Of a stretch of DNA of 64,000 nt, positions 17,798 through 48,575 are shown one piece after another (positions within the stretch are counted from its first letter, which is position 1; each line of letters starts with the position of its first letter). The notes beneath the pieces were generated by a model. It searched no databases. It saw nothing but the letters and a program-made list of their open reading frames with translations, and had not been told where the DNA came from. A program made the translations under genes and the position numbers. Source of the stretch: Solimonas sp. SE-A11 (GTDB lineage: Bacteria; Pseudomonadota; Gammaproteobacteria; Nevskiales; Nevskiaceae); NCBI RefSeq assembly GCF_030345715.1, contig NZ_JAUASX010000010.1:1-64000 (forward strand), read 5' to 3'.

Positions 17798-19153
17798 CTA
17801 CTTCGCGTCCTTGAACCGCTTCTGCAAGCCCTCCGGCGTAAAGTAATCCATCGAGGGCGTCGCCCCAGCTCCCGGCGAAACCAGCCCGGACACCAGGTAG
17901 CGCCCGATATCGAACTGATACACCAGCTCGGCCGACGCAACGGTGGCCTTGAGCTGGGGGTCATAGGCCAGGTGCGCTTCCTGGAACTGGTAGGCCTGGT
18001 CGTAGACGTCCAGCAGGTCTACCGCCGCGATCTGCCAGCTGTCTTCATCGATGTAGAAGATGCGCTTGCGCACCGGGTGCGCAGAGCCCTTCTTCAGCGC
18101 CGCCTCCACCACCCAGACCCGGTGCAGCTCGTAGCGCGGCCATTCCTGGTCGATGTGCCAGGGCTTCACCAGCTTGCTGAAGTCGCCCTTGTCGGCCCCG
18201 GCGACGCTGCGCGGGCTGTTGTAGGGGATCAGCAGCTCGCGCTTGCCGGCCAGCTTCCAGCTGTAGCGATCCAGCGTGCCGTTGAACATGTCCATCTGGT
18301 CGTAGAACTGCAGACCTTCGGCGCCCGGCGTGAAATTGTCGCAGCAGGCATTGGGCTCGCGGCGCATGCGAGGCTGCTTCTGGCTGGCGATCCAGGCCAT
18401 GCGCCCCTCGGTGCCGGTGCCGCTGCGCTCGCGGATCAGCAACTCCGTGCCGGCCAGGCGCGGTGGCGCCATGGTTTCGGTGGCCAGTTGCCAGAGATCG
18501 CGGCTGTTGGGGTCCAGAAGCTGTGGCCGCCCCGGATTGGCGTAGCTGAAGCGGTAGTCCTCGCGTACCCGAGTGGCCTGGAACTGCCCCTTGGGGTCCA
18601 CCACGAGGTTGTTGTTGATGCGAGACAGCGCCTCGCCGCGCCAGCGCAGCTTGTGGTTCCAGATCGCCTCGGCGCCGCTCTTGGGGATCGGGAACGGGAA
18701 ACCCAGCAGGCAGCCGGCGGGATCGTCGCTGCCGGCGAGCTTGCAGCGCTGCGCGTTGAGCAGGCTGGCCTTCTCGATGCCATCCGGCCAGCGTACCGTG
18801 CGGCGCGAGGGGTACACGCGCATGGAGTAGGTGTTGTACTCCTGCAGCAGCTTCATGTGCCCTTCCGTGAGCCAGTCACGGAAGCGGTTCATGTTGTCGA
18901 TGGTGATGACGAACATCGGCGCGCCCGGCTCGGCATCGCCCAGCTCCATCAGCTTGCCCGAGGCCGCCGCCTGGCCGCGGTCGAGCCCCCAGGCCGGCAA
19001 GGTGCCGTCGGCATTGCCGGCGCGTTCGGCGCCCACGGGCGTCAGGGCGGCACCGAGCGCAGCGGACTCGACCGCGGGGACAGCAGCCAACAGCGGCCAG
19101 GCACCAAGGCTCAGGCCCACGGCCAGCAGGGCCCGCGGCAAGGTTCTCATCAT
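17798..19153 (-). CDS. DUF1329 outer-membrane-associated protein
   Basis: A 451-aa exported protein of the DUF1329 family, distantly related in fold to LolB/outer-membrane lipoprotein sorting proteins and often found near steroid, terpene or fatty-acid degradation genes. The ATG at 19153 sits behind GGGAGGAG and opens a Sec signal peptide (ending PLLA). Family-like blocks include MFVITIDNMNRFRDWLT, RRTVRWP, YSWKLAGKRELLIPYNS, and RKRIFYIDEDSWQI near 370. It stands alone here; the usual DUF1302 partner is not seen. Biochemical role unknown. Confidence 0.85.
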   Translation of the reverse strand: MMRTLPRALLAVGLSLGAWPLLAAVPAVESAALGAALTPVGAERAGNADGTLPAWGLDRGQAAASGKLMELGDAEPGAPMFVITIDNMNRFRDWLTEGHMKLLQEYNTYSMRVYPSRRTVRWPDGIEKASLLNAQRCKLAGSDDPAGCLLGFPFPIPKSGAEAIWNHKLRWRGEALSRINNNLVVDPKGQFQATRVREDYRFSYANPGRPQLLDPNSRDLWQLATETMAPPRLAGTELLIRERSGTGTEGRMAWIASQKQPRMRREPNACCDNFTPGAEGLQFYDQMDMFNGTLDRYSWKLAGKRELLIPYNSPRSVAGADKGDFSKLVKPWHIDQEWPRYELHRVWVVEAALKKGSAHPVRKRIFYIDEDSWQIAAVDLLDVYDQAYQFQEAHLAYDPQLKATVASAELVYQFDIGRYLVSGLVSPGAGATPSMDYFTPEGLQKRFKDAK

Positions 19154-38115: not shown

Positions 38116-38499
38116 TCAGCGTGTACGGCGCAGCCAGTCCCAGAACAGCAGCGCGAATAGCAGGTCGCCGCAGGCCAGCAGCGGCAGTTCCCAGCCGATG
38201 TAGCCCATGGCCCAGGGGATGCCCGCGGCCGGCAGCACCAGCATCTTGCCGATGGCACCCAGCTCCACGTAGACGCGGTAGCGCTGCGGGTCCATGGCGA
38301 CTCGCGCATAGGCATAGGCGAAGAGGCCCACGAAGGCGCCGGAGAGATTCGACAGCACTACGCTGCCCGCCGTAGCCGGCCCCAGGTTCAGCAGCGCGCC
38401 GATCTGGGCGCTGGCCGTCAGCAGGCCCAGTGCCACGGCGAGATTGAACAAGGCCGCGAAACTGAACAGCAACCGCGTGTAAGAAGAATCTGCCTGCAT
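38116..38499 (-). CDS. Small four-helix membrane protein
   Basis: A 127-aa hydrophobic protein of unknown function with four predicted helices (about 9-30, 38-58, 75-95, 100-120). ATG 38499 (MQADSSYTRLLFSF) follows GGGGGAG at five bases. The frame is open upstream but reads through a strong stem-loop, so the long version is rejected. It converges with the patatin gene. On its upstream side lie the structured segment and the PucR regulator. Confidence 0.7.
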   Translation of the reverse strand: MQADSSYTRLLFSFAALFNLAVALGLLTASAQIGALLNLGPATAGSVVLSNLSGAFVGLFAYAYARVAMDPQRYRVYVELGAIGKMLVLPAAGIPWAMGYIGWELPLLACGDLLFALLFWDWLRRTR

Positions 38500-38571
38500 G
38501 CTGCTCCCCCGGTGTTTGCCCGAGCATAGCAAGTGCGGCGCCCAGCCATCCTGACCTGCCGGCATGCAGGC

Positions 38572-38720
38572 AAAAAGGGATTCATGGCCGGCTGCAACGA
38601 GGCCGGCCATGAATCCCAATCCCGGCGGCGGAAGGCCCCGGGGATCCCCACGAAAGGATGACGGCACCGGCGACCGCACGACACGGTCGCCGGCCAGGCC
38701 TGCATCTTCGCGGCAGGCAC
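38572..38720 (-). ncRNA. Candidate structured small RNA ending in an intrinsic terminator
   Basis: The 341-bp space between the small membrane protein and the PucR gene holds three strong stems. GCCTGC/GCAGGC lies at 38698-38718. CCGGCGACCG/CGGTCGCCGG lies at 38667-38693 and is a perfect ten-bp stem. The third, at 38577-38617, has perfect 16-bp arms GGGATTCATGGCCGGC and GCCGGCCATGAATCCC. On the minus strand five T follow the last stem (38576-38572). That is an orphan terminator: no leftward gene lies upstream. A leftward transcript starting near 38.73-38.75 kb is inferred. Confidence 0.45.
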
Positions 38721-38750
38721 CCCACTCGCGCATTGGCAGGTTCACCAGCG

Positions 38751-38772
38751 CTTTTGTGATTCAGCACAAAGG
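38751..38772. promoter_or_regulatory. Inverted-repeat operator candidate, copy 1
   Basis: TTTGTG, six bases (ATTCAG), then CACAAA; arms extend to CTTTTGTG and CACAAAGG with one mismatch. It lies 69 bp before the PucR-type regulator and at the upstream edge of the candidate small RNA. The same motif recurs at 41388-41411. Confidence 0.65.
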
Positions 38773-38840
38773 GCTCCCAGCCTCCCAGCCGATGTCGCGT
38801 GCTATACAGGCGCCCGGGATATCTGCAGGAGCAGCAAGCG

Positions 38841-40115
38841 ATGGGCAAGGCAACCCGGCCGCGCGACGGCGCGGCCGTACCGGTGGTGTCGCGGCGCATG
38901 GCGTCGGAAGTGCGAGCCCTGTCCCAGCATGCCGAGGCCATCGTCCAGCGGGTTTTCGCCACGGTGCGTGAAGACGTGCCGGAGTACGCGGCGATCCGCG
39001 ATGCTGCCGTGGTGCGGGAGGTCGAGACCATGATCCGCATCAACGTCGATATCTGGTTCCGCGCCCTGCTGGGTGGGCGCTCACCCGACGCCGAGATGCT
39101 CAAGCCGGTGGCCGACTTCGCCCGGCGCCGCTTCCATCAGGGCATCGCCATGACCGGGCTGCTGCATTCCTTCCGCGTCGGCAGCACCGTGCTATGGCAG
39201 GCCTTCCTCGACGGCGTGCAGCATCGCCACGAACTGCGCGACGAGGTGCTGCTCAAGCTGTCGCCCTACATGATGTACCACACCGACCTGCTGGGGCAGA
39301 CCATCAGCCACGCCTACATCGACGAGCAGCGTCGCGGAGAGCGCTGGCAGAGCCGCCTGCAGCACGAACTCTGCTCCATCGTCTTCGACCGGCCCGATGA
39401 CACCGAGGGCTTCCGCGAGCGTGCGCTGGCGCTGGGCGCCGATCCCCTGGGCCGCCGCATGGCGCTGGCCTTCGCGGCCACCTCACATGGCAACAGCCGC
39501 AGTGCCGCCGAGGACGAGCTGGAATCGCTGTTGGGCGCCCTGACCCAGCGCGACGAGCCGCGCCCCATCGGCACCCTGTGGCGCGAGCATGCGGTGATCT
39601 GGATGGCGGTCCCTGGCGGCGAGAACGCGATCCGGCACGAGCGGCGCCTGGCCACGCAACTGGCGCAGTCGCCGGCGTTGCGCGGGCGCACCCAGCCGGT
39701 GGGCATCGGCCTGGCGGGCACCGGTGCCCGCGGCTGGCATCTCAGCGCGGAGCAGGCCGCGCGTGCCCTGGACATCGGCCGGCGCCTGGCGACACGCGGC
39801 CGGCAGTTCCGCTACTCCGACTACGTGCTGGACGACACCGCCCTGCAGTCGCGCAATGTCGCCGGCTATCTCGAAGGCCTGCTGGAGCTGATCGCCCCGG
39901 AGCCGCACCTGCTGGAAACGCTGGACAGCTACTTCCTGCAGCGCCAGCAGCGCAAGACCGTCGCCGCCACGCTGGAGATCCACCCCAACACGCTGAGCTA
40001 CCGCCTGAAGCGCATCGAGACCCTACTGAAGGCGGACCTGGACGATCTGTCCTGGCAGTCCCGCCTCAGCGCCGCGCTGCTGATGCGACGCATGGGTCGC
40101 GCCGACAGCGCCTAG
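38841..40115 (+). CDS. PucR/CdaR-type helix-turn-helix regulator
   Basis: A 424-aa transcription regulator. The N-terminal 140 residues are helical (RRFHQGIAMTGLLHSFRVGS) as in RsbT-co-antagonist-like sensor regions. A degenerate GGDEF-like middle domain (IGLAGTGARGWHLSAEQAARAL) follows, and the C-terminal PucR helix-turn-helix (LLETLDSYFLQRQQRKTVAATL-type helix, then HPNTLSYRLKRIE near 395) is clear. ATG 38841 is used, with GGAG ten bases upstream. It sits between two copies of a TTTGTG-N6-CACAAA repeat that may be its own target. Ligand unknown. Confidence 0.86.
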   Translation: MGKATRPRDGAAVPVVSRRMASEVRALSQHAEAIVQRVFATVREDVPEYAAIRDAAVVREVETMIRINVDIWFRALLGGRSPDAEMLKPVADFARRRFHQGIAMTGLLHSFRVGSTVLWQAFLDGVQHRHELRDEVLLKLSPYMMYHTDLLGQTISHAYIDEQRRGERWQSRLQHELCSIVFDRPDDTEGFRERALALGADPLGRRMALAFAATSHGNSRSAAEDELESLLGALTQRDEPRPIGTLWREHAVIWMAVPGGENAIRHERRLATQLAQSPALRGRTQPVGIGLAGTGARGWHLSAEQAARALDIGRRLATRGRQFRYSDYVLDDTALQSRNVAGYLEGLLELIAPEPHLLETLDSYFLQRQQRKTVAATLEIHPNTLSYRLKRIETLLKADLDDLSWQSRLSAALLMRRMGRADSA

Positions 40116-40124
40116 GCGCCCGCT

Positions 40125-41276
40125 TCAGAACATCATCGTCTCGGCAAAGGGATCGACCGGCGGGCGCCTGCCGTCGCCGTGCCGGCGCAGGCGCTCCAGC
40201 ACTGCGGCATGCCCCGCCCGCTGGGCCAGCATCGCCGGCGTCGCACCGTTGTCTGCACGCAACCCCGGATCGGCGCCGGCCTGCAGCAGCACGTCCACCG
40301 CCTCCAGGAAACCGCGACCGGCCGCCTGGTGCAATGCGGTGTGCCCGGATACCTGCGCGGCGTTGGGCTGTGCTCCCGCGCGCAGCAGCCGGTGCACGAT
40401 GCCCAGGGCGCATTCCTGCGAGGTCTGCGTCAGGGCACTGTTGAGCGGATGCGAGCGCATGTTGTTGCGCGACACCGCGTTGACGTCGGCACCCGCCTGC
40501 AGCAGCCGGTCCACGCAGTCGCCGTGCCCGAAGAAGCAGGCCAGCCCCAGCGGCAGGAAGCCGTCGGCCCCGGGCAGGTTCACGCGCTCGGGGGCGCGGC
40601 GCAGCAACAGTGCCAGTGGCTCTATGGCGCCCATTGCGGCGGCCTCGCAGAGCGTCAGGTCATCGCGCAGCGCCAGCAGGTAGGCGGCGATGCGCTCCTG
40701 CCGCTTGTAGGCGGCCACCAGAAGCACCGAGGCGCCCGTGCCATCCACGGTATCGATCAGGTCATGGTCCAGGGCCAGCAGTTCCTTCATCCGCGAAAAC
40801 TCGCCGCCCTTCACCGCATTCAGGAAATCCTGCCGCAGCAGCAACACGCCCTGCTGTGGCGCCGCGACCACCTCCTTGCTGCGGAAGGCGGGCACCGGCG
40901 CACCCCATTGCATGGTGTGCGCATCGACCATCGCCAGGCGATTGCCCCAGGGGTCGGTCATGCACAGCCCGGCCTCGCCGCCGGGCATGCGCCGCGGCTC
41001 GTGGTCCACCTCGGTGGCGCCCATCTGCACGGCGCGCATGCGCAGCTGCATCAGGTTCTCGTCCACGCCGATATAAATCAGTTGCGGCGAGGGCGGTAGC
41101 GGCGTCTCGCCGTCGACGCGTGCGTCATAGCAGGTCAGCAGCGCCTGCCCGAGGGGAAAGTTGTGGATCGCCGGAGGCACGCGGAACCCGTCCACCAGCA
41201 ACAGGCTGCTGTAGAAGCGCACGGCCCGGTCCAGCCCCGACACCGGGATCACGATCCGGAAAAGCTTGGCACCCAT
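40125..41276 (-). CDS. VOC (glyoxalase-fold) domain fused to ankyrin repeats
   Basis: A 383-aa cytosolic protein with an unusual domain pair. Residues about 4-130 resemble a vicinal-oxygen-chelate domain (LFRIVIPVSGLDRAVRFYSS, then ending MTDPWGNRLAMVDAH). Residues about 155-370 are ankyrin repeats (ADGFLPLGLACFFGHGDCV, SGHTALHQAAGRGFLEAV, DNGATPAMLAQRAGHAAV). ATG 41276 follows GGGGAA. Ankyrin repeats usually mediate protein contacts, so the VOC part may be targeted to a partner; the activity is unknown. It converges with the PucR gene and is divergent from the M28-like gene. Confidence 0.83.
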   Translation of the reverse strand: MGAKLFRIVIPVSGLDRAVRFYSSLLLVDGFRVPPAIHNFPLGQALLTCYDARVDGETPLPPSPQLIYIGVDENLMQLRMRAVQMGATEVDHEPRRMPGGEAGLCMTDPWGNRLAMVDAHTMQWGAPVPAFRSKEVVAAPQQGVLLLRQDFLNAVKGGEFSRMKELLALDHDLIDTVDGTGASVLLVAAYKRQERIAAYLLALRDDLTLCEAAAMGAIEPLALLLRRAPERVNLPGADGFLPLGLACFFGHGDCVDRLLQAGADVNAVSRNNMRSHPLNSALTQTSQECALGIVHRLLRAGAQPNAAQVSGHTALHQAAGRGFLEAVDVLLQAGADPGLRADNGATPAMLAQRAGHAAVLERLRRHGDGRRPPVDPFAETMMF

Positions 41277-41387
41277 GAATTTCCCCAAAACCTGGACCGC
41301 TCGGCTGCGGGATCGAGCCCCGCCGGCCTTTTCATGTCCTCAACCCGTCACGATGCACGAAAGCCCGCCCGCTGCCAAATGAAGGGC

Positions 41388-41411
41388 GCTTTTGTGCTCG
41401 GGCACAAAAGC
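41388..41411. promoter_or_regulatory. Inverted-repeat operator candidate, copy 2
   Basis: GCTTTTGTG, six bases (CTCGGG), CACAAAAGC: perfect nine-base arms. It lies in the gap between the divergent VOC-ankyrin and M28-like genes, about 111 bp before the latter. It has the same core and spacing as the site before the PucR gene. Confidence 0.7.
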
Positions 41412-41521
41412 ACCTGTGACACGGCCAATGGCGGGCGGCTCCTGCTGGCCTCACACTGGCGAATCACAGATGGACCCGCCGGCTCCGCAACGGCCAGCCG
41501 GACAGGTCCCGAGGAGAACAC

Positions 41522-43189
41522 ATGAGCGTTTCCATGCGTCTGGCCCGCCGGGCCGGCCTTGCACTGGCCGTCGCCGGCCTGACCCTGGCCGCTGGTTGCG
41601 GCAGCAGCCGTCCGGTCGATGGCGCCTCCGGCGGCACCCCGGGCCTCGACCACAGCCGCGAATTCGATGCCGCGCTGATGCCGAGCCTGGCCCAGGTGCG
41701 AGGCTGGCAGTACGAGATCGACAGCTTCGACAGCGGCTTCCGGCCCGCCGGCAGCGTGGCCGAAATCGCCTATGCACAGCGACTGGCCAGCCAGCTGCGC
41801 GCCATGGGCGTGCCGGACGTGCGCCTGGAACCCTATCCGGTGGACCGCTGGATCGCGCAGAGGGCGCAGTTGCAGCTGCTTGCGGGCGACAGCGCGGAGG
41901 ACATCCAACTGGTGTCCTACATCCCCTTCTCCGGCAACACCGGCCCCGGGGGCCTGGAAGGCCCACTGGTCTACGTGCCAGGGCTGGCCGCCGTGGACCT
42001 GACCGACGTCGTGGTGCGCATGCTCGACAGCGGCGCACTGGCCGGCGGTGTCCTGGGCCTGGTGCAGTCGTTGGTGGGCCTGCTCGGCGACACCGCCAGC
42101 GGCCTGTCGTCCATCGTCTCCCTGCTCACCGCGGCGGACGTGCGCGGCAAGATCGTGGTCTACGACCTGCCGCGGCTGACCATTCCCATCGGCGTGCTCA
42201 GCAGCCTGGCCCTGCACGTCACCGACGACGCCGGCACCATGGGCTTCACCACGCCCTTCTCGCGCCCCTTCCTGGACATGGTGGTGGCCCAGGTTGTCAC
42301 CACCGCGCTGAAGGCTGCCGGCGCCGCTGGCGCGGTTGGCATCGTCGACTATCCGCAGGAAGCCGCACAGGGTTCCTATTACCCGTTCTTCGCTCGCTTC
42401 CTGCCCGCCTCGCCCACGGTCTACCTGGACCGCGACACCGGCGCCGCGCTGAAGCAGCGCCTGCTGGCCAACCCGCTGTCCGCCAAGCCGGCGCGGCTGA
42501 CGCTGCACGCGCTGGAGGAAAGCGTGGAGGCTTACAACGTGGTCGCCGTGCTGCCGGGCGCGAGCCCTCTCGAGATCGTGCTCAGCTCGCATACCGACGG
42601 CACCAACTCCATCGAGGACAACGGCCCGGCCGCGATCCTGGGCATCATGCGCTACTTCACGCGCATCCCCCAGTCGCAGCGCAAGCGCAGCCTGCGCGTG
42701 GTGTTCAGCGGCGGGCACTTCGGCGGCGGCGGCCTGGGGCACTATATCGAAGAGAACCACGACGAGCTGCAGGAGAAGGTCCTGGCCGCGATCGAGGTCG
42801 AGCACGTTGGCGCCCGCGAATGGCTGGAGATCGCCCCCGGCGTCATGGGCCTCACCGGCCTCAACGAGCCGCAGGTGATCATGACGCCGCTCGGCGAAGT
42901 ATTCGAGCGCGAGAGCATCCTGCTGTCGCAGCAGTTCGACCGCAGCATCGTGATGCCGCCGCTGCTGCCCTTCGGCGAGGGCCAGGCCTATCGCAACGAG
43001 GGCGGCCTGCCGGTCATCCAGTACATCACCGGGCCGGTCTACCTGCTCAACTTCGGCATCCCCAAGGTCACCAGCGAGTTCACCGACTACCCGCTGATGC
43101 ACGCACAGGTCGGCGCCTTCGTGCGCATGATCCTCAACCTGGGCAACGAGCCGGCCAGCGCCCTGCGCTCCGGCATCGAGGAACGCTAG
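41522..43189 (+). CDS. M28-like peptidase lipoprotein with PA-type insertion
   Basis: A 555-aa envelope lipoprotein (lipobox LAAGC, Cys near 26). The fold order resembles M28 aminopeptidases: an N-terminal segment, a PA-like insertion, then SSHTDG and IEDNG (about 355-368), equivalent to the H-D and D-N-G metal motif. The usual Glu-Glu motif is replaced by SGGHFGGGGLGH near 396-407, and EVEHVGA follows. So two metal ligands look present, while the catalytic Glu region is altered; activity may be lost or different. A TTTGTG-CACAAA palindrome lies upstream. Confidence 0.72.
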   Translation: MSVSMRLARRAGLALAVAGLTLAAGCGSSRPVDGASGGTPGLDHSREFDAALMPSLAQVRGWQYEIDSFDSGFRPAGSVAEIAYAQRLASQLRAMGVPDVRLEPYPVDRWIAQRAQLQLLAGDSAEDIQLVSYIPFSGNTGPGGLEGPLVYVPGLAAVDLTDVVVRMLDSGALAGGVLGLVQSLVGLLGDTASGLSSIVSLLTAADVRGKIVVYDLPRLTIPIGVLSSLALHVTDDAGTMGFTTPFSRPFLDMVVAQVVTTALKAAGAAGAVGIVDYPQEAAQGSYYPFFARFLPASPTVYLDRDTGAALKQRLLANPLSAKPARLTLHALEESVEAYNVVAVLPGASPLEIVLSSHTDGTNSIEDNGPAAILGIMRYFTRIPQSQRKRSLRVVFSGGHFGGGGLGHYIEENHDELQEKVLAAIEVEHVGAREWLEIAPGVMGLTGLNEPQVIMTPLGEVFERESILLSQQFDRSIVMPPLLPFGEGQAYRNEGGLPVIQYITGPVYLLNFGIPKVTSEFTDYPLMHAQVGAFVRMILNLGNEPASALRSGIEER

Positions 43190-43734: not shown

Positions 43735-46179
43735 ATGGATCAGCTGGCATCGCTGCAGATCGCCATGGCCGCTATTGCCTTGCATCACCTGCTGGCCCGC
43801 CGCACGGAACCATCGGATCGCTGTGAATGGATGCTGTCGCTGGCGCTGCTCAACGCGGCCGCGCTGGCGCTCTGGAGCAGCGCCCACGCTCCCGCCGAAC
43901 TGGGCGGCCTGTGGCTGCGGCACGCCATGGCGTCGGTAGCCGCCGTGGCCGCCCTGCGCCTGCGCCTGGGCCTGACCCTGCACCGCCAGCAGCCGCAGCT
44001 GCTGCGCCGTTTCCTGGCACCGGTGTCCTATGTCGCGGTCACCCTCGCCGCCACGCTGCTGTCGCCGCCCGCGCTGGCGCAGGAAGACGCCCTGCCGCTC
44101 GACACGATCCCGGTCGAGCCCTCCTCGCCGCCCAAGACCGACGAACAGATCATGCTCAAGCCTGTGGAGGTCCACGCACAGCGCGGCTACATAATGGACA
44201 GCGCCAGCAGCGGCACCAAGACCGACGCCGCGCTGATGGAGACCCCGGTCTCGATCTCGGCCATCCCGCGCCAGCGCTTCGAGGACCAGGGCGCGCAGAC
44301 CGTGCAGGACGTGCTGCGCTACAGCACCGGCACGCGCACGGATGCCTACGGCTTCGACACGCGTGGCGACTGGGCCATGATCCGCGGCAGCAGCGCCATG
44401 TACTACCTCGACGGCCTGCGCATGCTGTTCGAGTCCTACAACACCGTGCGTCCCGATCCGTGGACGCTGGACAGCGTCGAGATCCTGCGCGGCCCGGCCT
44501 CCGTGCTCTATGGCCAAGGCCCCAGCGGTGGCATCGTCAACCTCAACTCCAAGCTGCCGCAGGCCACGCCGGAGCACCAGTTGCGGGCCGAGTTCGGCAG
44601 CTACGACCGCCGGCAGTATGCGCTGGACAGCACCGGCAGCCTCACCGCCGACAACAGCCTGAGCTACCGCCTGGTGGCACTGCAGCGCGACTCCGACACG
44701 CAGGTGGACTACGTCGAGGATGATCGCTGGCTGGTCTCGCCCTCGCTGAGTTGGGCTCCCAGCCACTGGCTGCGCTGGACCGTGCTCGGTCGCCTGCAGA
44801 AAGACGAGAGCGGCACCAGCGTGGGCTTCCTGCCCTGGGAAGGCACCGTGCTGCCGAACCCCAACGGCCCCATACCGACCAACCGCTTCGTCAGCGAGCC
44901 GGATTTCGACCGCTACGACATGGAGCAGTCCGCCGTCACTTCGATCCTGGAACTGCAGCTGGGCGAAAACTGGAGCCTGCGCCAGAACCTGCGCTGGTCG
45001 GACAGCAGCGGCCACTACCGCACGCTGTACCCTAACGCCTTCGTTGGCCCGCCGTTCCTGCTCGACCCGCAGATGCGCAAGGTACTGCGCATCTCCAGCA
45101 TCAGCGACACCGATACCAGCACCCTGACGCTGGACCAGCAGCTGCAGGGCCGTTTCCGCACCGGGCCAATGGAACACCTGTTGCTGGCCGGCTACGACTA
45201 CTCGAGAGCCAATATCGACGAGGTTTACGGCGACCTGTCCTCCAACCTGCTGCTGGTGGCGCTGCAGGGCCGCTTCGACCTCTACGATCCGCAATACGGC
45301 CGCTACATCGCGCCGCAGACCTCGCAGCAGCCGCGCGCCCATCTGCGCCAGTCCGGCTTCTACCTGCAGGACCAGGTGCACATCGGCGAGCACTGGATCG
45401 CCCTGTTCGGCGCCCGCCACGACCAGGCCACCGCCAGCAGCGGCAGCACCGACAGCGACGACTCGGAAACCTCTCTGCGCGCCGGCCTGCTGTACCGCTT
45501 CGACGCCGGCTTCTCGCTGTACCTCAGCTACTCCGAGTCGTTCCAGCCGGTGGCCGGCCTGGACCAGAACAGCCAGGCCTACAAGCCGGTGCGCGGCAAA
45601 TCGCGCGAGATCGGACTCAAGTACCAGCCGCCGGGCTCTGCCAGCCTGCTGACCCTGGCCACCTTCGAGACCCGCGAGGAGAACCGCCTGGCACCCGGCA
45701 GCAACCCGCGCTTCCAGGTGCAGCTGGGCGAGGCCGACATCCGCGGCATCGAGTTCGAGGCCCTGACCACCCTGTTCTCGCAGTTGGACCTCACCGCCAA
45801 CTACACCTGGCTGGACGCCGAGAGCAACCAGGGGCCCAGCGCCGCGGCCGGCCAGCGCTACAAATCGCTGGCCACCATCGCCGAACACACCGGCTCGCTA
45901 TGGGCCCGCCTGCGCTTCGCCATCGCCGGAGTGCCCGGCTTCTCCGTCGGCGGCGGCTTCCGCTATATCGGAGAGACCACCGACGAAGGTCGCGAGGTCA
46001 CCGTGCCGTCGATCAAGCTGTTCGACGCCATGGCCGCCTGGGAGAACCCGCACTGGCGCCTGGCCATCAACGCCAGCAACCTCGAGGACGACGCCTACGT
46101 CGCCTCCTGCCTGGAGCGCGGCGACTGCTACTACGGCCTGCGCCGCAGCGTCGTCGGCAGCATTGCCTACAAGTTATGA
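43735..46179 (+). CDS. TonB-dependent siderophore receptor with N-terminal membrane module
   Basis: Outer membrane receptor (814 aa) of the FpvA/FhuA-like siderophore group. The plug domain spans about 135-260 (ETPVSISAIPRQRFED, GDWAMIRGSS, VEILRGPASVLYG, GGIVNLNSK), then a 22-strand barrel ending RRSVVGSIAYKL. Oddly, about 90 residues containing three hydrophobic helices (LQIAMAAIALHHLL, MLSLALLNAAALALW, AMASVAAVAAL) precede a typical signal sequence (LLRRFLAPVSYVAV ending ALAQ near 113). The start has a strong ribosome site (GGGGAAG) and a Fur-like box before it, so the extension is probably translated. Confidence 0.85.
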   Translation: MDQLASLQIAMAAIALHHLLARRTEPSDRCEWMLSLALLNAAALALWSSAHAPAELGGLWLRHAMASVAAVAALRLRLGLTLHRQQPQLLRRFLAPVSYVAVTLAATLLSPPALAQEDALPLDTIPVEPSSPPKTDEQIMLKPVEVHAQRGYIMDSASSGTKTDAALMETPVSISAIPRQRFEDQGAQTVQDVLRYSTGTRTDAYGFDTRGDWAMIRGSSAMYYLDGLRMLFESYNTVRPDPWTLDSVEILRGPASVLYGQGPSGGIVNLNSKLPQATPEHQLRAEFGSYDRRQYALDSTGSLTADNSLSYRLVALQRDSDTQVDYVEDDRWLVSPSLSWAPSHWLRWTVLGRLQKDESGTSVGFLPWEGTVLPNPNGPIPTNRFVSEPDFDRYDMEQSAVTSILELQLGENWSLRQNLRWSDSSGHYRTLYPNAFVGPPFLLDPQMRKVLRISSISDTDTSTLTLDQQLQGRFRTGPMEHLLLAGYDYSRANIDEVYGDLSSNLLLVALQGRFDLYDPQYGRYIAPQTSQQPRAHLRQSGFYLQDQVHIGEHWIALFGARHDQATASSGSTDSDDSETSLRAGLLYRFDAGFSLYLSYSESFQPVAGLDQNSQAYKPVRGKSREIGLKYQPPGSASLLTLATFETREENRLAPGSNPRFQVQLGEADIRGIEFEALTTLFSQLDLTANYTWLDAESNQGPSAAAGQRYKSLATIAEHTGSLWARLRFAIAGVPGFSVGGGFRYIGETTDEGREVTVPSIKLFDAMAAWENPHWRLAINASNLEDDAYVASCLERGDCYYGLRRSVVGSIAYKL

Positions 46180-46310: not shown

Positions 46311-48575
46311 ATGAACAAGCCCCCCTTCGCCCTGCTGGCCGGCCTGCTGCCCCTGGCGGCCGTCGCCCAGCCCGAGGCGCCCGCTGCCGAAGCCGCCGTG
46401 CCGGTCATCGAAGTCGTGCGGACGCCGCAAGCCACGCCGGCACTGGCTGAAACGGACGAGCCGGTGAAGCTCGCGCCCGTCGTGGTCACCGGCGAAAAGC
46501 TGGGCCGCTCGCTGGCCGAGACCAACAGCAGCGTCGCCATTGTCACGCGCGAGGATCTCAAGGCTGGCAGCGATGCCTCGATGAAGGACATCGTCACCCA
46601 GTTCGCCAACGTGGTCTCGGCCGACGGCGACCGCGAGATCGCCATCCGCGGCGTGCCGCAGGGCGGCATCGGCGGCCAGGGCGACACCATCAGCGTCTAC
46701 CTCGACGGGGTGGCCCTGCCCTCGCGTGCCGGCGCCTTCGCCGGCCCGCTGTCGGCCTGGGACCTGGAGCAGGTCGAGGTCCTGCGCGGCGCCCAGTCCA
46801 CCAACCAGGGCCGCAACAGTCTGGCGGGTTCCGTGGTGCTGCGCTCGATAGAGCCCACCGCGGAGTGGGACGCGCGCCTGCGCGCAGGCATCATGAGCCG
46901 CGACGGCCATGACTACGCCTTCGCCGGTGGCGGCCCCATCACCGACGCCCTGCGCTTTCGTATCGCCGCCCAGGACCGCTACGACAATGGCGACGTGGTC
47001 AACACCACCCGCAACGAGGACGACGCCCAGCGCGAACGCACGCGCAACGTCCGTACCCGCCTGGCCTGGACCCCGCAGGCCCTGCCCGGCTACAAGGCCC
47101 TCTACGGCTACACCGAGTCGGACAACGAATACGGCGACCCCTTCCACGACTCCTCGGGCGGCGAGCGCACGGAAACCTCCAACGTCCGCCCCAACGAAGA
47201 CGTGACCACCAAGCTGCACAGCCTGGAGCAGGGCTACGCCTTCAACCCGCGCTGGAGCCTGGACGCGATCAGCGGCTGGTCGGAGCTGTCCAATCTCTAC
47301 ACCATCGACTACGACCGCAGCGCGGCGGATGGCGGCTACTCGGACAACACCGAGGACGAAGACATCCTCAGCCAGGAACTGCGCCTGCGCTACTCGAGCC
47401 CACGTTTCAAGGCGATCACCGGTCTCTACTACGCCGACTCGGACGTGGTGAAGAAGACCATCGGCTACGACGTGGCGGCCGCCGGCGGCGTCGCCCTGCT
47501 CAACGGCACCATCGACTCCGAAGCCAACACCCGCACGGCGGCCCTGTTCGCCGAAGCCGACTGGGACTTCGCCGATGCCTGGCGGCTGACTGCCGGCCTG
47601 CGCCTCAACCAGGAACGTGCGCGCCGCCATGACGTCAGCAACCTTGACCTGAGCGTCACCACGCCGCCGCAGCTGCCCCTGCCGATCCCCGTGGTACTGC
47701 CGTTGCCCGATCCGCTGTCCGACCTGCTGTCGACCATCGCCTCCGGCACCGTGCCGCCCGACTACGACAAGCAGGACCGCACCCGCTACACCGACCTGCT
47801 GCCCAAGGCCGGCCTGACCTGGTTCGTCACGGACAACAGCTCCCTAGGCCTGACCTACCAGGAGGGCTACCGTTCCGGCGGCACCAGCATCTCCTTCTTC
47901 GGCGGTGCCGTGAGCCCCTATGAGCCCGAGTACACCAAGACGGTCGAACTGTCGCTGCGCTCGCGCTGGCTGGACGAGCGCCTCACCTTCAACGCCAACC
48001 TGTTCTACACCCGCTGGCGCGACCAGCAGGTGACCATCGGCGAAACCTCCGGCTTTTCCACCTACACGGAGAACGCCGGCCGCTCCCATTACTACGGCCT
48101 GGAGACCGAGCTGCTGTGGAAGTTCCAGGGACCGCTGGAAGCTTTCCTGACTTTCGGCCTGCTGCGCAGCGAGTTCGACGAGTTCGGCAACGACCTCAAC
48201 GGCAATGGCGCCACCACCGATCCGGAGGACGAGGACTACAAGGGCAACGAGTTCCCCTACGCCCCGCGCCAGACCGCCGGAATCGGCCTGACGCTGAAGG
48301 AGTGGCACCGCATCAGCGGCCAGGTAGCCGCCAACTATGTCGGCTCCTTCTACAGTGACCCGGACAACGATCCGCAGTCGCGCGCCGACGCGCGCGTTCT
48401 GGTCAACGCCAAGCTGGGCTACGCACTGCCGGCCGGCTTCAGCCTGGCAGTCTACGGCCGCAACCTGACCGACGAGCTGAACGACCAGGGAGCCCTGGTG
48501 GCCGGCACGCGCCTGGCTAGCCGCTACGGCGAGCCGCGCAGCTTCGGGGCGGTGCTGGAATGGCAGATGGAGTAA
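46311..48575 (+). CDS. TonB-dependent receptor
   Basis: Outer membrane receptor of 754 aa, normal layout. A short signal peptide (MNKPPFALLAGLLPLAAVAQ) and acidic linker precede a plug with LAPVVVTGEKLGRSL near 47 and VEVLRGAQSTNQGRNSLAG near 155. The barrel ends in RSFGAVLEWQME. The plug motifs (VYLDGVALP) resemble receptors for non-siderophore or catecholate ligands; the substrate is unknown. It follows the first receptor by 131 bp, and no separate Fur box is seen, so they may be co-transcribed. Confidence 0.88.
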   Translation: MNKPPFALLAGLLPLAAVAQPEAPAAEAAVPVIEVVRTPQATPALAETDEPVKLAPVVVTGEKLGRSLAETNSSVAIVTREDLKAGSDASMKDIVTQFANVVSADGDREIAIRGVPQGGIGGQGDTISVYLDGVALPSRAGAFAGPLSAWDLEQVEVLRGAQSTNQGRNSLAGSVVLRSIEPTAEWDARLRAGIMSRDGHDYAFAGGGPITDALRFRIAAQDRYDNGDVVNTTRNEDDAQRERTRNVRTRLAWTPQALPGYKALYGYTESDNEYGDPFHDSSGGERTETSNVRPNEDVTTKLHSLEQGYAFNPRWSLDAISGWSELSNLYTIDYDRSAADGGYSDNTEDEDILSQELRLRYSSPRFKAITGLYYADSDVVKKTIGYDVAAAGGVALLNGTIDSEANTRTAALFAEADWDFADAWRLTAGLRLNQERARRHDVSNLDLSVTTPPQLPLPIPVVLPLPDPLSDLLSTIASGTVPPDYDKQDRTRYTDLLPKAGLTWFVTDNSSLGLTYQEGYRSGGTSISFFGGAVSPYEPEYTKTVELSLRSRWLDERLTFNANLFYTRWRDQQVTIGETSGFSTYTENAGRSHYYGLETELLWKFQGPLEAFLTFGLLRSEFDEFGNDLNGNGATTDPEDEDYKGNEFPYAPRQTAGIGLTLKEWHRISGQVAANYVGSFYSDPDNDPQSRADARVLVNAKLGYALPAGFSLAVYGRNLTDELNDQGALVAGTRLASRYGEPRSFGAVLEWQME

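Follow-up and report, generated by a model that had tools for sequence, protein, structure and literature searches.

A regulator gene with two copies of one palindrome in its surroundings raises the question of which protein reads the palindromes and which genes come under its control. Such an arrangement occurs in the stretch of Solimonas sp. SE-A11 DNA analyzed here (contig NZ_JAUASX010000010.1, positions 1 to 64,000; the 64-kb window), where a sequence-only reading had noticed two copies of TTTGTG-N6-CACAAA beside a PucR-type gene and had assigned both to one dimeric regulator, probably the PucR-type protein, controlling its own gene, an M28-like gene, and perhaps a VOC-ankyrin gene. The analysis that followed makes it quite probable that each palindrome forms the strong half of a 38-bp operator of the adjoining PucR-type protein, with copy 2 serving to activate the M28-like gene and copy 1 persisting as a relict. 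The principal features, all in window coordinates, are these:

38753..38770, - strand: strong dyad of copy 1, TTTGTG-N6-CACAAA (sequence, exact pattern search).
38841..40115, + strand: gene of the PucR-type regulator, 424 amino acids, with a predicted globin-like N-terminal domain, a GGDEF-like domain, and HTH_30 (Pfam; AlphaFold2 and fold comparison).
40125..41276, - strand: VOC-ankyrin gene, placed outside the proposed regulon (not between the PucR-type and M28-like genes in Stagnimonas aquatica, G011, or in genome G022).
41391..41408, + strand: strong dyad of copy 2, TTTGTG CTCGGG CACAAA (sequence, exact pattern search).
41522..43189, + strand: gene of an M28-like putative lipoprotein with a zinc aminopeptidase fold, the presumed target (homologues, structure model).

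Both copies are exact in the window and flank the region of the PucR-type gene, as had been claimed. The core of copy 1 (38753-38770, TTTGTG ATTCAG CACAAA) ends 70 bp upstream of the PucR ATG at 38841. The arms of copy 2 had been called perfect over nine bases; they are perfect, although over ten, one base beyond the claim (GCTTTTGTGC-TCGG-GCACAAAAGC, 41388-41411). That such palindromes are chance or non-regulatory repeats might be argued from the window alone, in which two matches at up to two mismatches are not rare (at least two in 11 of 100 shuffles). The genome-wide search that had been proposed as a check gives a different picture, as the exact motif has two matches in the 4,937,450 bases (4.94 Mb) of the window genome (G000), both at this locus; allowing one mismatch adds three further places, compared with one for the reversed control. 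All four Solimonas genomes searched (G000-G003, G001 being S. fluminis) contain exactly two copies at the PucR/M28-like locus and no match to the reversed pattern, and the spacers between the dyad arms have diverged among them. Within this genus, the motif is neither common nor unlinked to the regulator, and the palindrome is missing from no close relative searched, so that neither of the outcomes named in advance as refuting the proposal was seen. In a wider survey of 100 genomes (the window's own and relatives, with the reversed pattern as control), the exact motif occurs in 11, comprising the 4 Solimonas genomes and 7 others with one match each. As the reversed control also matched in 7 of the 96 non-Solimonas genomes, these single matches are at chance level, and none of them lies at the PucR-type or M28-like genes found in those genomes. 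Genome-wide rarity, conservation in Solimonas, and the linkage to PucR-type genes, with its specificity of spacing, led to rejection of chance repeats, a reading of vanishing probability. The restriction of the motif to this locus and its retention in all four Solimonas genomes support the idea of one shared regulator, the PucR-type protein.

Each palindrome is half of a larger element. A CCAAT is found on one side of each, so that the whole comprises TTGTG-N6-CACAA, 17 bp, and CCAAT (38 bp), with a -10-like hexamer usually at a fixed distance beyond. The two full elements and the putative promoter features are as follows:

41392..41429, + strand: full bipartite element of copy 2, TTGTG-N6-CACAA-N17-CCAAT, pointing to the M28-like gene (pattern search).
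41452..41457, + strand: -10-like hexamer CACACT of copy 2, a putative promoter (conserved distance).
38732..38769, - strand: full bipartite element of copy 1, pointing away from the PucR gene and toward a deleted S15/CocE-type gene (pattern search).
38704..38709, - strand: -10-like hexamer GAAGAT of a putative relict promoter (alignment).
38800..38808, + strand: TG-extended -10-like TGCTATACA of the PucR gene (sequence; also in G001-G003, more degenerate in G011 and G022).

When TTGTG-N6-CACA was required to precede CAATGG with the gap left free between 16 and 26, 10 matches emerged in 6 of 11 genomes; every one has a gap of 19 and a length of 40 bp and lies within 1.5 kb of a PucR-type gene, and the reversed control gave 0. 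Copy 1 carries CCAATGC and so escapes the CAATGG pattern, yet it has 0 mismatches to TTGTG-N6-CACAA-N17-CCAAT. At up to two mismatches, the bipartite pattern has three weaker matches in G000 (one for the control), and the two whose context was inspected lie inside predicted genes. The gap between the regulator and M28-like genes of G011 and G022 contains GTTGTG-N6-CACAAC or GTTGTG-N6-CACAAG. A simple scan of 38480-38860 for sigma-70 promoters and terminators picked up neither, the -10-like hexamers named above having come from alignment and lacking a good -35, and 38400-41550 contained no Rfam match at gathering scores.

Because the element recurs with the same spacing near PucR-type genes across genera, in Stagnimonas, other Nevskiaceae, Marinobacter, Dyella/Rhodanobacter, Paraburkholderia, and Sodalis, the PucR-type protein is the most likely binder. 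Relatives of the regulator at about 32-45% identity were found in Marinobacter, Nevskiaceae, Dyella, Rhodanobacter, Pinirhizobacter, Luteibacter, Pseudomonas, Paraburkholderia, Caballeronia, Burkholderia, and Sodalis. G000 has a single relative at E up to 0.001; when the class was searched at E up to 1e-40, with no more than 4 candidates scored per genome, the regulator turned up in the window's own genome alone out of 369, and a search across the genus Marinobacter gave 1 of 120. Linkage was measured on 29 further PucR-type genes, a set without the 4 Solimonas genes and the 2 motif-defining orthologues of G011 and G022 and with loci duplicating the surveyed genomes dropped. Flanks within 450 bp were scored as matches out of 15 element bases. 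A score of at least 13/15 was reached by 13 of the 29 genes, by none of 100 shuffles, and by 6 of 313 control pieces, each 900 bp long; one of those six should be a second site before an S15-like gene on the ND3 contig (L069 7525). The spacing is equally specific, with CCAAT at offset 33 in 13/29 genes (other offsets 0-4) and a dyad gap of 6 in 16/29 (other gaps 0-2). After pooling of genes at least 80% identical into 20 clusters, offset 33 is still found in 11 (other offsets from 25 to 44 in 0-4) and the N6 gap in 14 (other gaps 0-2).

A later Burkholderiaceae set drew on 97 Paraburkholderia genomes, of which 21 have a relative (26 genes in all), and on 3 plasmid records, for which the best place per record was taken (7 places across the 3). 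Removal of duplicates and of genes already used left 25, with L245 and L247 dropped as members of the first set and the duplicates L271 = L248 and L253 = L120 counted once; this set is partly dependent on the first, the L246 protein being 93% identical to that of L106, and 9 of the 25 genes are closely alike. Here the signal is weaker, with 5/25 reaching 13/15 at offset 33 and 8/25 having the N6 dyad at 9 or more of 10 bases (other gaps 0-2), as if the link between element and regulator weakened with distance but kept its spacing. Left outside the element scans were 46 more distant loci (L125-L170) and the M28-like paralogues elsewhere in G000.

Several observations weigh against a PucR-type operator of this form. 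As many as 16 of the 29 genes in the first set and 20 of the 25 in the later set have no 13/15 element nearby, including several of the relatives with HPNT in the recognition helix, a feature of 28 of the 31 aligned; three HPNS relatives (L119, L121, L124) are also without it. The first set includes related genes, and several sites were noticed by eye before counting. In the later set, a dyad gap of 0 ties with 6 at 8/10 bases (12/25 each), and CCAAT offset 34 occurs 3 times versus 5 for offset 33 (remaining offsets 0-2). A looser pattern gives 1-6 matches in each of 11 other genomes, compared with 0-4 for the control, so that it is for Solimonas that the site has been shown to be unique. In addition, the downstream module fits the TTGTG-N6-CACAA dyad poorly, and the Burkholderiaceae and Sodalis elements are mostly inverted relative to the likely target, which leaves no single promoter geometry.

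Another regulator, for example one of CRP/FNR type, might bind the palindrome, with the linkage to PucR incidental. The TGTG...CACA arms resemble CRP sites in composition; the CRP site, however, is TGTGA-N6-TCACA, i.e. TGTG-N8-CACA, whereas both copies here are TGTG-N6-CACA. A global regulator would, moreover, have many sites rather than the two exact ones of each Solimonas genome, and the element tracks PucR-type genes across several genera and differing target genes. The difference in spacing led to rejection of a CRP-type site, and binding by such a regulator is considered very improbable.

How the PucR-type protein would act is suggested by the position of the element relative to the promoter. 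This was examined in 18 non-redundant oriented elements out of 21 listed (two G002 copies and that of Rhodanobacter being dropped as near duplicates), a list that has the inverted elements of Burkholderiaceae and Sodalis outside it. The 18 have a -10-like pattern at a fixed distance (A61 in 14, A63 in 12, T65 in 12) and a GTGA-like stretch at 24-27 (G24 in 16, T25 and G26 in 11, A27 in 13). With a start assumed seven bases past T65, the dyad centers at about -64 and the second module at about -42, two turns apart, and because of these positions the protein is probably an activator of the M28-like gene. A regulator dimer would occupy TTGTG-N6-CACAA with its center near -64, while a second subunit pair of the same oligomer, giving two-dimer occupancy, would contact the GTGA...CCAAT module, which lies two helical turns (about 22 bp) closer to the promoter and has its center near -42. 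This second contact, adjoining a poor -35, would activate transcription, at copy 2 that of the M28-like peptidase gene. The mostly inverted element of Burkholderiaceae and Sodalis makes a protein contact more likely for CCAAT than a promoter element.

Among the known sites closest to this arrangement is that of GabR, a PucR-type protein of Corynebacterium glutamicum that, in the portion of the source consulted (PMC7652997), acts as an activator from a pair of inverted repeats located between -87 and -23. GabR is likewise a local activator with a C-terminal PucR-type helix-turn-helix (HTH), and one of its two upstream repeats is the stronger; unlike the regulator here, it has no GGDEF-like domain, its repeats are 21 bp, and its targets are gabTDP, and that same portion mentions no N6 dyad with a CCAAT module (PMC7652997). 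AdeR and PutR of Bacillus subtilis are also described there as PucR-type activators, with inverted repeats of 24 and 17 bp; they differ in organism and targets, and the likeness is one of described sites rather than of site letters. The site of the namesake of the type, PucR of B. subtilis, is not palindromic according to the same partial account (PMC7652997).

An opposite mode of action, in which the PucR-type protein represses or autoregulates, with copy 1 controlling the PucR gene and copy 2 repressing the M28-like gene, is rated unlikely. As to repression, the upstream, -35-abutting positions suit an activator, and the studied PucR-type regulators are described as activators, B. subtilis PucR being both, as far as the consulted extract of PMC7652997 goes. 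As to autoregulation, which the sequence-only reading had favored, copy 1 does lie 70 bp ahead of the PucR gene, its center falls some 53 bp short of the predicted PucR start, and its dyad arms persist in G000 and G002 despite loss of the gene on the other side. Its full element nevertheless faces away from the PucR gene; in G001 and G003, a divergent S15/CocE-type gene of 647 amino acids lies next in that direction. In G011 and G022, whose orthologues are the closest outside Solimonas, the PucR promoter lacks such a site, and the spacing of dyad and PucR -10 varies, being 29 bp in G003 versus 32 (counted by eye). Orientation and relatives thus led to rejection of self-regulation as the main role of copy 1.

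What copy 1 would once have controlled is indicated by the deletion. The S15/CocE-type gene matches PF02129 (Peptidase_S15) and PF08530 (PepX_C) above cut-off in both G001 and G003, and its CocE_NonD score in G001 is 209.7 bits versus a cut-off of 66.3. No copy of comparable identity is present in G000 and G002, whose best matches, elsewhere in the genome, are 42% and 41% identical, as opposed to 81% between G001 and G003. Instead, in both genomes the operator and -10-like region run straight into the last codons of the gene, with the stop changed, followed by a terminator hairpin. These remnants give local alignment scores of 63.5-76.5, compared with shuffle maxima of 16.5-20; for the window remnant and terminator together against the G001 3' end, the score is 76.5 and the shuffle maximum 18.5. 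The remains in the window are:

38615..38691 (limits approximate), - strand: remnant of the S15/CocE-type 3' end, consisting of the last codons with the stop codon changed (local alignment to the G001 3' end).
38572..38617, - strand: hairpin with a T run, resembling a terminator and left over from the deleted gene (like the hairpin after the intact gene in G001 and G003; fold prediction).

The hairpin was missed by the simple terminator scan because its 9-nt loop exceeds the 3-8 allowed. Copy 1 is therefore most likely the leftover operator of a deleted hydrolase gene rather than, in the main, a site of self-regulation. The divergent gene would have been lost by an in-place deletion in the ancestor shared by the window species and G002, leaving an orphan operator/promoter that may still hold PucR and possibly affects PucR's own gene.

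The deletion could also have fused a PucR-controlled operator/promoter to a terminator and so created a new PucR-controlled small RNA of about 125 nt, although this is regarded as quite improbable. The predicted relict transcript (window 38572-38697, - strand; L065 8792-8918, - strand) has four hairpins in both deletion-carrying species, with fold z values of -5.4 and -4.3 for transcript ends chosen by the analyst. Between the two sequences, 18 substitutions break 2 of 42 pairs, compared with 4.6 expected (P 0.012), in a test that takes its structure from one of the two sequences and in which one hairpin is the inherited terminator. A paralogue of the lost gene elsewhere in G000 (C34:131828-133582, L204; 42% identical) contains one TAG codon within the match, as does its G002 counterpart.

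Copy 2 has its full element directed at the M28-like gene, and M28-like targets recur in relatives, both of which support the control of this gene that had been proposed. An oriented element precedes the M28-like gene in Solimonas, G011, G022, and Marinobacter, where the product is 26% identical over 405 columns (E 1e-20). The M28-like product of the window has no Pfam (up to E 10) or NCBIfam match, and its structure model is of moderate confidence (mean pLDDT 67); in Foldseek, this model matches M28 aminopeptidases best (2ek8: E 3.3e-23; TM-score, normalized by query length, 0.49). The Solimonas proteins contain SHTDG, EDNG, and EVEH stretches, candidate sites of the zinc ligands; in the Marinobacter homologue, Asn replaces the His of SHTDG.

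Control of the VOC-ankyrin gene, which had been offered as a further possibility, finds no such support. In the gene maps of relatives, which came from a simple gene caller, the M28-like gene of G011 and G022 directly follows the regulator gene, with the element still beside it and the VOC-ankyrin gene gone from between, and copy 2 in the window faces the M28-like gene. The VOC-ankyrin gene was accordingly rejected as a target, although the element may have some effect on it.

Elsewhere the oriented elements precede genes of other kinds. These include DUF1302-DUF1329 operons at paralogous loci of G011 and G022, DUF6351 and S15-like genes in ND3, a short gene with MaoC-like and PhaC-like genes after it in G057 (of the window's family by genome search), and a histidine kinase gene in Pinirhizobacter.

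The regulator itself is PucR-type by its C-terminal part only. HTH_30 (PF13556) is matched at the C terminus (4e-15, 55.7 bits versus a cut-off of 27), preceded by GGDEF_2 (PF17853; 7e-10, 39.6 bits versus 24.5), while the N-terminal PucR domain PF07905, the hallmark of the PucR family as strictly defined in PMC7652997, is absent from the four Pfam families listed at E up to 10, a search whose filters drop most weak matches. In the AlphaFold2 model (mean pLDDT 88), residues 20-164 resemble 3pmc (Z 15.4, rmsd 2.2 over 132), 9fb1, the N-terminal part of Rv2242 (Z 13.1, rmsd 3.0 over 141), and 2bnl, RsbR (Z 11.6), while heme globins (DosC 4zvb, Z 12.6) and phycobiliproteins (about Z 12) match as well; the query is a predicted model, and for helical folds a Z below about 13 may carry little meaning. 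Helix 84-99 of the globin-like domain ends in His99, a nearly invariant residue of an RRxHQG stretch, and the domain may bind heme. The C-terminal GGDEF-like and HTH fold matches 3onq (Z 16.5) and 9f80, the C-terminal part of Rv2242 (Z 16.4), at rmsd 5.8-6.0, and 9f80 is also matched by sequence profile (E 8e-10). The orthologues in G011 and G022 are 74-76% identical. The predicted architecture is thus that of MabR (Rv2242) of Mycobacterium tuberculosis, which has the same modules, globin-like, GGDEF-like, and HTH, according to the part of PMC11617747 consulted, and a ligand signal would presumably enter through the globin-like or the GGDEF-like domain. MabR, unlike the regulator here, is actinobacterial and has other targets. 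Its architecture is said in that part to be largely restricted to Actinomycetia, with few exceptions (PMC11617747); the present case is predicted in a gammaproteobacterium.

Few PucR-type regulators have been studied, by the account of the source consulted in part (PMC7652997), and those with a known DNA site are fewer still. No report of this operator appeared in the literature searched, which comprised titles and the starts of abstracts and had most subscription journals outside its coverage. If correct, the proposal would define an operator, exact in its spacing, for a proteobacterial subfamily whose sensor domain is globin-like, and would allow prediction of targets from sequence alone, among them secreted hydrolases, DUF1302/DUF1329 proteins, and acyl-CoA and efflux genes. 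The relict copy would further illustrate that a regulatory site can outlive its gene, which argues for caution in assuming self-regulation from sites adjacent to a regulator.

Regulator relatives in Burkholderiaceae (L106, L107, L109, L114, L116, L118) and Pseudomonas (L102) adjoin operons with enoyl-CoA hydratase (a Pfam match in L106) and with genes that look, by eye, like CoA-transferase, acetoacetate decarboxylase, acyl-CoA dehydrogenase, and 3-hydroxyacyl-CoA dehydrogenase genes; in some, the element is present and inverted. Elements or relatives also occur near an HlyD-like gene (L108 7697, Pfam) and YtcA-like genes (L105 7655, just below the Pfam cut-off; L109 1668, by eye). In the window, a product encoded near 17798 is 39% identical to the DUF1329 proteins of the element-preceded operon in G011 and G022, and two TonB-dependent receptor genes lie downstream of the M28-like gene, at 43735-46179 (siderophore-receptor-like) and 46311-48575.

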